Positions 47,852 to 59,604 of a DNA stretch of 64,000 bases are shown here, in pieces; within the stretch, counting starts at the first letter, position 1, and every line of letters starts with the position of its first letter. This DNA comes from Candidatus Collinsella stercoripullorum. GTDB lineage: Bacteria > Actinomycetota > Coriobacteriia > Coriobacteriales > Coriobacteriaceae. The position numbers were made by a program, and so were the translations under genes. The notes beneath the pieces were generated by a model. It was given only the letters and a program-made list of their open reading frames with translations. It did not search any database and was not told the origin of the DNA. The stretch lies in contig DXAO01000044.1 of the NCBI GenBank assembly GCA_019117005.1, positions 1 through 64,000 of the forward strand, given 5' to 3'.

Positions 47852-47880
47852 TTGACCGCGAACAGCTGTTCGGATATAGT
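47852..47880 (+). promoter_or_regulatory. recA promoter with LexA (SOS) box
   Basis: TTGACC at 47852-47857 and TATAGT at 47875-47880 are 17 bases apart. A perfect palindromic SOS box, CGAACAGCTGTTCG (47859-47872), fills the spacer, so LexA would block RNA polymerase directly. The form CGAAC-N4-GTTCG is that used by Gram-positive LexA proteins. Confidence 0.92.
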
Positions 47881-47913
47881 CAGGGGAGACGAGAACCCGA
47901 GGGAGGAACCTTC

Positions 47914-49032
47914 ATGGCTAAGAGCAGCGGCGGATCGGTCCGCCAGATCCATGAGCGCACCTACGGCGAGGAGCGCGACAAGATGGTCGAGCGCACCAAG
48001 GCCGACATCGAGAAGAAGTTCGGCACGGGCGCCATCATGCGCTACGGCGACGGCGGCCCCGAACTCGAGGTCGAGGCCATCCCCACGGGCGCGCTCGCGC
48101 TCGACGCCGCCCTCGGGATCGGCGGCGTCCCGCGCGGCCGCATCATCGAGATCTACGGCCCGGAGTCATCGGGCAAGACGACCCTCTCGCTCGAGATCCT
48201 CGCCGAGGCGCAGGCCGCCGGCGGCGTCGTCGCCTTCATCGACGCGGAGCACGCGCTCGACCCCGGGTACGCGGCGCGCATCGGCGTCGATATCGACGAG
48301 GTCCTGATCTCCCAGCCCGACACGGGCGAGCAGGCGCTCGAGATCTGCGATATGCTCGTGCGCTCCGGCGCCATCGACGTCGTGGTCATCGACTCCGTAG
48401 CGGCCCTCGTGCCCCGTGCGGAGATCGAGGGAGAGATCGGCGACTCCTCCGTCGGCCTGCAGGCGCGCCTCATGAGCCAGGCCCTGCGCAAGCTCGCCGG
48501 CTCCCTTGCCAAGTCGCGCACCACCTGCATCTTCATCAACCAGCTGCGCGAGAAGATCGGCGTCATGTTCGGCAACCCCGAGACCACGACCGGCGGTCGC
48601 GCGCTCAAGTTCTTCTCCTCCGTCCGCATCGACATCCGCCGCATCGACAGCATCAAGAACGGCACCGAGATCGTCGGCAACCGGGTCCGCTGCAAGGTCG
48701 TGAAGAACAAGGTGGCCGCCCCCTTCAAGACCGCCGAGTTCGACATCATGTACGGCACGGGCATCTCCAAGGAGGGCTCCATCCTCGACATGGGCGTCGA
48801 TTATGACATCGTCAAGAAGTCCGGCGCCTGGTACACCTACGAGACCGACCGCCTCGGTCAGGGCCGCGAGGCCGCCAAGGAGTTCCTGCGCAAGAACCCC
48901 GAGCTCGCCGAGGAGATCGAGCATCGGGTGCGCGTCGCCTGCGGCCTGGAGTTCGAGGACGAGCCCACCGGCGAGGCGGTCGATCCGGGCGCGCTCGACG
49001 CGCCCTCCGCATCCGACGGGCAGAAGGGCTAG
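47914..49032 (+). CDS. recA: recombinase RecA
   Basis: Strand-exchange ATPase of homologous recombination; as a filament it triggers LexA self-cleavage. The 372-residue product has Walker [18 protein letters not shown] near residue 84, [72 protein letters not shown], and a short acidic C-terminal tail. ATG 47914 follows GAGGGAGGAACC. The N-terminus is extended by about 15 residues compared with common RecA starts but is in keeping with the strong RBS. Controlled by the SOS promoter at 47852; recX follows in operon after three bases. Confidence 0.97.
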
Positions 49033-58092: not shown

Positions 58093-58169
58093 CAAACAAA
58101 TGTTCCCTTTTTCCTTGACAGGAACAACTGTTCGAACATAATGATATACGAACACCCGTTCTTGCGCCA
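58093..58169. promoter_or_regulatory. bidirectional SOS control region (lexA / LysM gene)
   Basis: Three LexA-box-like sites: GAACAACTGTTC at 58122-58133, CGAACACCCGTTCT at 58149-58162, and a degenerate CAAACAAATGTTCC at 58093-58106. Rightward, TTGACA (58115-58120) and CATAAT (58137-58142) are 16 bases apart with the first box in the spacer. Leftward, TGGCGC (58169-58164) and TATCAT (58146-58141) are 17 bases apart with the second box in the spacer. Each promoter thus has its own operator, and lexA is autoregulated. Confidence 0.88.
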
Positions 58170-58232
58170 GTCGGTTTTTGTCCACGCGGGAAGGTATACC
58201 TACAGTCGTCAGTTCGACGAAGGGAGATACAG

Positions 58233-58649
58233 ATGAACGCATGCACCATGGTCGAGGGCAACCTCGCCGTCGCCGCCACCTACGAGCGCCCCCGGTTCCA
58301 TGTCGTCGACGGCGGCCTCGATGCCCGCCTCGCGCCCCGCCCCGTCGCCGTCCAGCCCTGCAGCACCGTGAGCCCCCGCACCGTCCTCGTGGCCTCCGCA
58401 TGCGTCCTCGCCGTCCTGGCGGTCCTCTTCGGGGGTCTCGCATCCCGCCAGGCGGCCTTCGACGCGGCGCTCACCTCCCAGAGCCGGATCGAGGTGGCCG
58501 TCGAGCGCGGGGACACCCTGTGGTCCATCGCCTCCGCCCATCCCATCGACGGCATGTCCCAGGTCGACACTGTCGAGGTGTTGAAGAGCTGGAACGGTCT
58601 CGAGCAGGCCTCCCTCCAGCCGGGGATGGTGCTCTCGGTCCCCGCGTAA
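58233..58649 (+). CDS. LysM protein, probable SOS cell-division inhibitor (YneA-like)
   Basis: A 138-residue single-pass membrane protein: N-terminal cytoplasmic tail, one helix at about 50-68 (VLVASACVLAVLAVLFGG), then a LysM domain at 86-137 (IEVAVERGDTLWSIASAHP... VEVLKSWNGLEQASLQPGM). In Bacillus, YneA has the same layout, is divergent from lexA, and blocks septation during DNA damage. Here the gene faces lexA and its promoter carries an SOS box. Position, regulation and architecture together support the same role, although sequence outside LysM is not conserved enough to prove it. ATG 58233 follows GAAGGGAG. nrdR follows 63 bases later. Confidence 0.85.
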   Translation: MNACTMVEGNLAVAATYERPRFHVVDGGLDARLAPRPVAVQPCSTVSPRTVLVASACVLAVLAVLFGGLASRQAAFDAALTSQSRIEVAVERGDTLWSIASAHPIDGMSQVDTVEVLKSWNGLEQASLQPGMVLSVPA

Positions 58650-58712: not shown

Positions 58713-59156
58713 ATGCGCTGTCCCAAATGCGGCGGGGGCGATACCCGCGTGATCGATTCGCGGACCCAAGAGGTCACCAACGCCATCAAGCGCCGTCGCG
58801 AGTGCCGCGCCTGCGGGTACCGGTTCACCACGTTCGAGCGCTGCGAGGACCCGATCGAGGTCCTCAAGAGCGATGGGACGACCCAGCCGTTCGATCGCAA
58901 TAAGCTGCTGGTGGGCCTCATGCGCGCCACGTCCAAGCGCGATATCGACCTCTCGGTCCTCAACGGCCTCATCGACGATATCGAGCACGAGCTGCGCGGC
59001 AGGACCTTCACGGCCGTGACATCGCATGATATCGGCGACATGGTGCTCAAGCGGCTCGAGAAGATCGACAAGGTCGCCTACATCCGCTTCGCATCGGTGT
59101 ACCGGGATTTCAAGGACATCGAAGAATTCCTCGAAGAACTCGACAAGCTCAGGTGA
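58713..59156 (+). CDS. nrdR: transcriptional repressor NrdR
   Basis: Represses ribonucleotide reductase genes in response to ATP/dATP. The 147-residue product has the N-terminal zinc ribbon (MRCPKCGGGDTRVIDSR; RECRACGYRFTTFER) and an ATP-cone domain (VLKSDGTTQPFDRNKLLVGL). ATG 58713 follows GAGGGGGTTGCC. dut follows four bases later, so two genes of dNTP balance sit together, next to the SOS genes. No nrd genes are seen in the window. Confidence 0.96.
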   Translation: MRCPKCGGGDTRVIDSRTQEVTNAIKRRRECRACGYRFTTFERCEDPIEVLKSDGTTQPFDRNKLLVGLMRATSKRDIDLSVLNGLIDDIEHELRGRTFTAVTSHDIGDMVLKRLEKIDKVAYIRFASVYRDFKDIEEFLEELDKLR

Positions 59157-59160
59157 TGCA

Positions 59161-59604
59161 ATGACTGCGGTGAACGTCTCCATCAAACGCCTCGACCCCT
59201 CGGTCGAGCTCCCTCGCTACGCCTACGAGGGCGACGCCGGCCTCGACCTGCGCGCCAACGAGTCCGCCGACATCCCGCCCCATGGCCGCGCGCTCATCCC
59301 CACCGGTCTCGCCATCGCCATCCCGGATGGGTATGCGGGATTCGTTCAGCCCCGAAGCGGCATGGCTCTCAAGCGCGGGCTCTCCATAGCGAACACGCCT
59401 GGCCTGATCGACGCCCATTACCGTGGCGAGCTCAAGGTGATCGCCGTGAACCTCGACCCGCGGGAGACCGTCCATATCGAGCGCGGCGAGCGCATCGCCC
59501 AGCTCGTCATCCAGCAGGTGCCCACGGTCCATCTCGTCGAGGTCGACGAGCTCGACGAGACCGATCGGGGCGCGGGCGGCTTCGGCTCGAGCGGCGAGGC
59601 CTGA
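59161..59604 (+). CDS. dut: dUTP diphosphatase
   Basis: Hydrolyses dUTP to dUMP, keeping uracil out of DNA and supplying thymidylate synthesis. The 147-residue product has all five trimeric-dUTPase motifs: EGDAGLDLRA (1), PRSGMALKRG (2), GLIDAHYRGELKVIAVN (3), ERGERIAQLVIQQV (4) and RGAGGFGSSG (5). ATG 59161 starts four bases after nrdR; the frame is open upstream into nrdR but has no use. An intrinsic terminator follows. Confidence 0.97.
   Translation: MTAVNVSIKRLDPSVELPRYAYEGDAGLDLRANESADIPPHGRALIPTGLAIAIPDGYAGFVQPRSGMALKRGLSIANTPGLIDAHYRGELKVIAVNLDPRETVHIERGERIAQLVIQQVPTVHLVEVDELDETDRGAGGFGSSGEA

Follow-up and report, generated by a model that had tools for sequence, protein, structure and literature searches.

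Our in silico analysis of a genome fragment from Candidatus Collinsella stercoripullorum points with good probability to a two-way SOS operator that drives lexA in one direction and, in the other, the gene for an N-in, C-out inhibitor of septal synthesis, whose helix would act on FtsW and whose LysM domain would act on glycan. While the divergent arrangement of lexA with a gene for a protein possessing a transmembrane (TM) helix and a LysM domain is already known, the evolutionary series of proteins encoded at this position (referred to here as the slot) and a cytoplasmic motif are new. The analyzed stretch of DNA, termed the window throughout, comprises 64,000 nucleotides of a 2.22-Mb genome (G000) whose nearest relatives, as judged by LexA, are Collinsella and Enorma (Coriobacteriaceae); its relevant features are compiled in Table 1.

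Table 1. Positions and supporting evidence of the features discussed in the text (window coordinates).
Feature	Position	Strand	Basis
lexA, SOS repressor, 212 aa	57433..58071	-	TIGR00498 239 bits; LexA_DNA_bind, Peptidase_S24
Weak LexA site AAACAAATGTTC in the lexA leader	58094..58105		AAAC....GTTC in relatives at the same place
Predicted sigma-70 type promoter of the LysM gene, TTGACA-16-CATAAT	58115..58142	+	11/12 matches
LexA box 2 GAACAACTGTTC, in the rightward promoter spacer, near the expected lexA start	58122..58133		Pattern match and conservation
Probable -10 of the lexA promoter, TATCAT	58141..58146	-	Read from sequence; region conserved in the genus
LexA box 3 GAACACCCGTTC, in the leftward promoter spacer, near the expected LysM transcript start	58150..58161		Pattern match and conservation
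Slot protein of 138 aa with cytoplasmic motif, single TM helix and LysM; putative division inhibitor	58233..58649	+	Pfam, NCBIfam, AF2
Cytoplasmic motif GNLAV...FHVVDGG, residues 9-28	58257..58316	+	Alignments A1, A2
Transmembrane core, residues about 50-70	58380..58442	+	AF2 helix 48-82, hydropathy
LysM domain, residues 90-137	58500..58643	+	PF01476 37.8 bits; Foldseek to 4uz2, 2mkx
nrdR, next downstream of the slot gene	58713..59156	+	TIGR00244 177.5 bits
LexA box upstream of recA (47911-49029)	47860..47871		GAACN4GTTC pattern

The anatomy of the locus can be read directly: lexA and the slot gene are transcribed away from each other across a gap of 161 bp. By eye, a dUTPase-like gene follows nrdR at positions 59161-59604. 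The pattern GAACN4GTTC occurs three times in the window against an expectation of 0.48, a count reached by three of 100 shuffled sequences, and two of the three matches sit in the gap. We discarded a genome-wide count of this pattern as evidence: 20 forward matches against 15 in the reversed control are too weak a signal, and several sites are intragenic. Since the genome-wide pattern barely exceeds its control, we put the weight on the position of the boxes and on their conservation, which can be observed in the relatives. The two LexA boxes and the weaker third site that had been predicted for the gap are retained in all 30 loci of the genus that we examined (39 genomes searched). Boxes 2 and 3 are spaced by exactly 28 bp in each of these loci, the weak site lies 27-29 bp from box 2, and the consensus of the genus alignment spans the promoter and the boxes, with TTGAC and ATAAT conserved. 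The site nearest to lexA reads AAAC....GTTC in 30/30 loci of the genus and in 60/60 named Coriobacteriaceae loci, as if its weakness had been selected.

Three sites spaced by 26-30 bp were present in 58 of the 60 named Coriobacteriaceae loci. In the Atopobiaceae, SOS control is less clear because none of 14 loci has such a three-site array, most possessing a single AAAC....GTTC site. Across the class, a pair of sites at exactly 28 bp was detected in 58 of 149 genomes, compared to 0/149 in the reversed control, and is absent from the other 91; by-eye comparison places 56 of these 58 pairs at lexA and the remaining two (genomes G040 and G093) elsewhere. In the latter, the pair (L257:1705-1744 and L258:1696-1735) precedes what looks by eye like a radical-SAM-like protein and not a membrane protein, so that we rejected the idea of a relocated slot gene. 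This radical-SAM-like protein appears by eye to be of a DNA repair or modification type, and both genomes are Atopobiaceae-like and without a slot gene. A further site, GAACATATGTTC, was seen at L146:1586-1597, between a gene of unknown family and, by eye, an rpoB-like gene.

The original prediction placed one box in the spacer of each of two back-to-back promoters. This arrangement is firm on one side only: the rightward promoter is a close match to the sigma-70 consensus, while the leftward one combines a good -10 element with a poor -35 element (2-3/6 matches, read by eye), and a promoter scan of the region found no leftward promoter. Since recA (547.5 bits), ruvC (178 bits) and a DNA polymerase IV-like gene (163.5 bits, below the model cut-off) are also preceded by LexA boxes, the host genome likely possesses an SOS regulon of the GAACN4GTTC type. 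The proposal of a shared SOS switch gains support from this regulon elsewhere in the genome, from the conservation of the operator, and from the divergent TM+LysM genes beside lexA across the class and in other Actinomycetota. The genome also encodes FtsW (351.8 bits, above the cut-off).

The slot protein of the window was predicted to have the architecture of YneA, and its domain order bears this out, with one TM helix followed by one LysM domain. The Pfam score for LysM is well above the cut-off of 20.9 bits, the AF2 model comprises a helix (residues 48-82) and the LysM fold at a mean pLDDT of 78.2, and Foldseek retrieves LysM structures (best E-value 3.8e-3). The gene order corresponds as well, since the gene is divergent from lexA with LexA boxes in between. 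The YneA model NF010723 aligns with residues 57-138 at 46.7 bits (E-value 2.3e-12); formal membership was rejected because the curated cut-off is 60 bits, a threshold passed by none of 198 genomes of the phylum and by one of 14 named control genomes. Moreover, the glutamate found at the helix entry of YneA is missing (Arg49 in the window protein), and the protein carries an additional cytoplasmic part of about 48 residues with a conserved motif. As a small single-TM protein encoded divergently from lexA behind LexA boxes, it has the layout of the lexA-adjacent SOS division inhibitors of Gram-positive bacteria, which are a functional class and not one sequence family. We regard it as likely that the slot protein is a division inhibitor, one of an ordinary kind.

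To survey the slot across the class, we used a profile (A1) built from 22 slot proteins of the genus. It matched in 106 of 149 class genomes, LexA being found in 145 of them, and the best match was the divergent neighbor of lexA in 105 of the 106 genomes; in the last one, lexA and the match lie on separate contigs. For the 39 genomes with lexA and without an A1 match, we inspected the lexA regions for TM segments by hydropathy. Among the 145 lexA-bearing genomes, 106 encode a TM+LysM protein in the slot and 34 a membrane protein without LysM, four have none, and one (G068) has only a LexA fragment; in all, a TM protein occupies the slot in 140/145 genomes by this tally. No slot gene was seen at the lexA region of G040, G093, G130, and G052. 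The 34 LysM-less cases are spread over 19 of 20 genomes of family f3, very likely the Eggerthellaceae (the third large family of the order), two Atopobiaceae-like genomes (f2), f4 (2/2), f6 (7/7), f7 (1/3), and one genome each, known from one assembly, of f9, f10, and f17. On the LexA tree (77 rows: 38 with LysM, 38 without, one left out), the presence of LysM changes seven times, one of these changes being the loss of the whole gene in G040/G093; the observed pattern is one of LysM loss with the TM segment kept. Outside the Coriobacteriales, slot proteins often terminate in a short tail whose last residue is Arg or Lys (e.g., AMARR, LALKR, AMR), as in L093, L095-L099, L101, and L122-L124. The LysM-less protein of L118 retains a tail of this type (AIATR), which gives the impression of an internal excision of LysM.

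In the phylum at large, NF010723 matched in 125 of 198 genomes. Among the best 72 of these matches (one per genome, the highest E-value being about 7e-7), 45 lie divergently from lexA at a distance of no more than 900 bp, 35 of them outside the class; nine more are divergent within 6 kb, two lie elsewhere, and 16 are from genomes without LexA among the matches listed. LysM genes divergent from lexA also occur in records from Negativicutes, Paenibacillus, and Lachnospiraceae (L231, L232, and L233).

The smallest LysM-less slot proteins are single helices of 23-48 amino acids. In the f3 genus g12 (nine genomes), an open reading frame (ORF) of 23 codons, M[AST]R[YFI]EF[PS]..., lies behind two boxes in all eight complete loci, the ninth contig stopping at lexA, and a GGAG-type ribosome-binding site precedes it in all six cases whose upstream region was inspected. 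Between near relatives, synonymous changes in this ORF clearly outnumber non-synonymous ones (11:1, 9:0, 7:1, and 3:1), and the two are about even at greater distance (e.g., 6:7 and 7:8). The f6 ORFs of 37-38 amino acids gave corresponding ratios of 21:2 and 15:5 for near relatives, 15:7 and 16:7 for further ones, and 11:21 and 12:19 at still greater distance; for the two f4 ORFs the ratio was 7:20. The micro-ORF of L116 is included in the list of slot proteins, yet was missed by the pattern used for this codon comparison.

Judging from the alignments, the constant part of the slot protein in the Coriobacteriales is a two-part cytoplasmic motif, GNLAL or GTSAL followed by F.VV.GG or IIxFP. The N-terminus in the Coriobacteriaceae reads GNLAL and then F.VV.GG in alignment A1; the first half is present in 55 of 59 named Coriobacteriaceae loci, some of which have an IIALP-like form of the second half. 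In the Atopobiaceae, 12 of 14 loci possess the first half (GTSAL, GSLAL, or the like), many together with LVLIEGG, and the f3 proteins combine GTSAL with IIxFP. AF2 models both halves as short strands with low confidence. Within the host genome, the slot protein is the sole significant match to the motif (E-value 5.7e-15; next 0.46). A model built from the genus alone is poor at finding f3, while with a model from f1 and f2 most f3 slot proteins rank next after those of f2 among 1343 ORFs, many with E-values above 0.01. Regular expressions for the motif matched 18 of 20 sequences (0.27 on average and at most 3 among 1000 rounds of shuffling) or, in a stricter two-part form, 12 of 20 (shuffle mean 0.012), both patterns having been drawn after the sequences had been seen. 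The motif is not a universal feature of slot proteins, and we dropped this idea: the model reached E-values of 0.01 or below in 11 of 198 phylum genomes, seven of them from f1/f2, and the other four (E-values 0.0016-0.008) fall in apparently unrelated frames of 650-680 codons. The f3 genomes of the phylum sample all stayed short of this threshold. Slot proteins of families outside the Coriobacteriales possess the TM helix and LysM without the motif.

The helix itself offers a possible link to YneA. According to the accessible text of PMC13396833, the TM helix of YneA reaches TM7 of FtsW, and the block of septal synthesis requires LysM; replacing K5, E6, F10, V11, or F14 with alanine nearly abolishes toxicity, and the E6A variant loses both toxicity and midcell localization. 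Glu occupies the first polar position ahead of the helix core in 21 of the 34 slot proteins from outside f1 and f3, micro-proteins included, compared to two of 21 TM segments taken from ORFs of the window; this automatic count is preferred to one from a hand-picked list (22/28), which is not reliable. At the same position, f3 has Gln in 11 and Glu in one of 17 proteins, and the genus has Lys, Arg, or His in 29/29 and Glu in 0/29. Because a Glu at the helix entry is common outside f1 and f3 and the helix of YneA docks on FtsW, we suggest that the slot proteins have the helix in common as their docking part, LysM being optional.

In the model that we favor, LexA dimers bound to the boxes 28 bp apart would cover both promoters, each strong box being placed within the spacer of one promoter and close to where transcription from the other begins. 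Positioned in the lexA leader only, the weaker box may add an extra degree of lexA autorepression. Upon DNA damage, both genes would be freed by RecA-driven cleavage of LexA. The product of the rightward gene, predicted to be an N-in, C-out bitopic protein, would most likely stop division at a late stage, that of septal wall synthesis: the helix would dock on the septal synthase (which, as for YneA, would be FtsW) and the LysM domain would bind glycan outside, while the GNLAL/FxVVxGG motif of the Coriobacteriales might contact an inner partner or a protease. We infer repression, induction, topology, division arrest, and the identity of the target alike. For the LysM-less forms, the prediction is that they inhibit division as well. 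This sits badly with B. subtilis, since there the TM segment without LysM fails to stop division, as reported in the available part of PMC13396833. A more far-reaching proposal, which we put forward tentatively and hold to be somewhat less probable than its opposite, is that the minimal SOS inhibitor is a bare helix: LysM would have been lost about six times, down to a protein of 23 amino acids (smaller than SidA), and the Coriobacteriales would have added the two-part GNLAL/GTSAL motif as a second point of contact, hitherto undescribed, with the division apparatus or its protease.

The size of the smallest LysM-less versions recalls DinQ, a LexA-controlled TM peptide of 27 amino acids that depolarizes membranes and for which the accessible text reports no role in filamentation (PMC3567139). 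The slot protein might accordingly be an SOS-induced, DinQ/TisB-like membrane toxin that reduces the membrane potential and slows cells down with no contact to the divisome. This is the main rival to division inhibition where the smallest forms are concerned; for the slot protein as such we consider it unlikely, since most versions possess LysM or a long, motif-bearing cytoplasmic part that a depolarizing toxin would not need, and established division inhibitors occupy this same position next to lexA. ChiZ, a reported cell wall hydrolase with LysM and a single TM helix (PMC3989709, as far as its available sections go), suggests instead a LysM hydrolase or activator that remodels the wall during the SOS response and affects division indirectly. 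Neither Pfam nor NCBIfam reveals a catalytic domain besides LysM, however, and because LysM was repeatedly lost from the slot, a wall-directed activity cannot serve as the general function; we rate this explanation as quite unlikely. Finally, the immediate proximity of nrdR, which follows the slot gene in the window and in most loci of the class, could mean that the slot gene serves nrdR as a leader or spacer, under joint regulation that increases the supply of deoxyribonucleotides, and has no role in division. This we regard as very improbable, because the slot gene persists in L076, L078-L081, and L106-L108, where a pattern search found no nrdR behind it, and because most changes seen in the short slot genes between close relatives are synonymous.

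The reading as a lexA-coupled division inhibitor provides common gut Actinomycetota (Collinsella and its kin) with a predicted DNA damage checkpoint. Our search of the literature on the SOS response of Collinsella, Eggerthella, and Coriobacter and on lexA, nrdR, and LysM yielded no description of the locus, most subscription papers being beyond its reach, and the accessible part of a paper on the SOS meta-regulon of the gut does not mention LysM (PMC3998124). This agrees with the novelty originally proposed for the group; the arrangement as such is well known in other Gram-positive bacteria. As far as the available excerpts show, B. subtilis requires both the helix and LysM (PMC13396833), while SosA and SidA lack the latter (PMC6851548, PMC4211646), so that the capacity of a helix alone is the question. 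The class has kept the place and the control of the gene while dropping LysM several times and, once, all but 23 residues, and thus offers a natural series of domain deletions with which the inhibitory part can be tested directly by side-by-side expression.

A location beside lexA is common to YneA, ChiZ, SosA, and DivS, according to the sections available from PMC3989709 and PMC6851548. Clear homologs of the known inhibitors are stated to be missing from Streptomyces in the accessible part of PMC9380542. By description, the window protein can be likened to ChiZ (Rv2719c) of Mycobacterium tuberculosis, which comes from the same phylum, also combines a TM helix with LysM, and is encoded next to lexA (PMC6851548); ChiZ is induced by DNA damage and inhibits division, and its LysM domain is said to be dispensable for function (PMC3989709, in part). 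SosA of Staphylococcus aureus and DivS of Corynebacterium glutamicum, which are described as having one TM helix and no LysM (PMC6851548, in part), resemble in this respect those slot proteins of the class that lack LysM. SosA has an extracellular C-terminal part, while the TM helix of the f3 proteins is at the extreme C-terminus with almost nothing outside. To our knowledge, the gene for SidA is not located beside lexA. The SidA protein of Caulobacter crescentus, an SOS-induced membrane protein of 29 amino acids that acts on FtsW (PMC4211646, in part), resembles by description the slot proteins of 23-48 amino acids. YneA of B. subtilis (NF010723) shares with the window protein the single TM helix followed by LysM and the gene position beside lexA. 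GAACN4GTTC-type boxes are found at yneA, beside lexA, as well. The window protein differs from YneA in its long cytoplasmic part with the motif, in the lack of the helix-entry Glu, and in its score below the cut-off, and the slot of the Coriobacteriia as a whole differs in often lacking the LysM domain that is reported to be essential in YneA.
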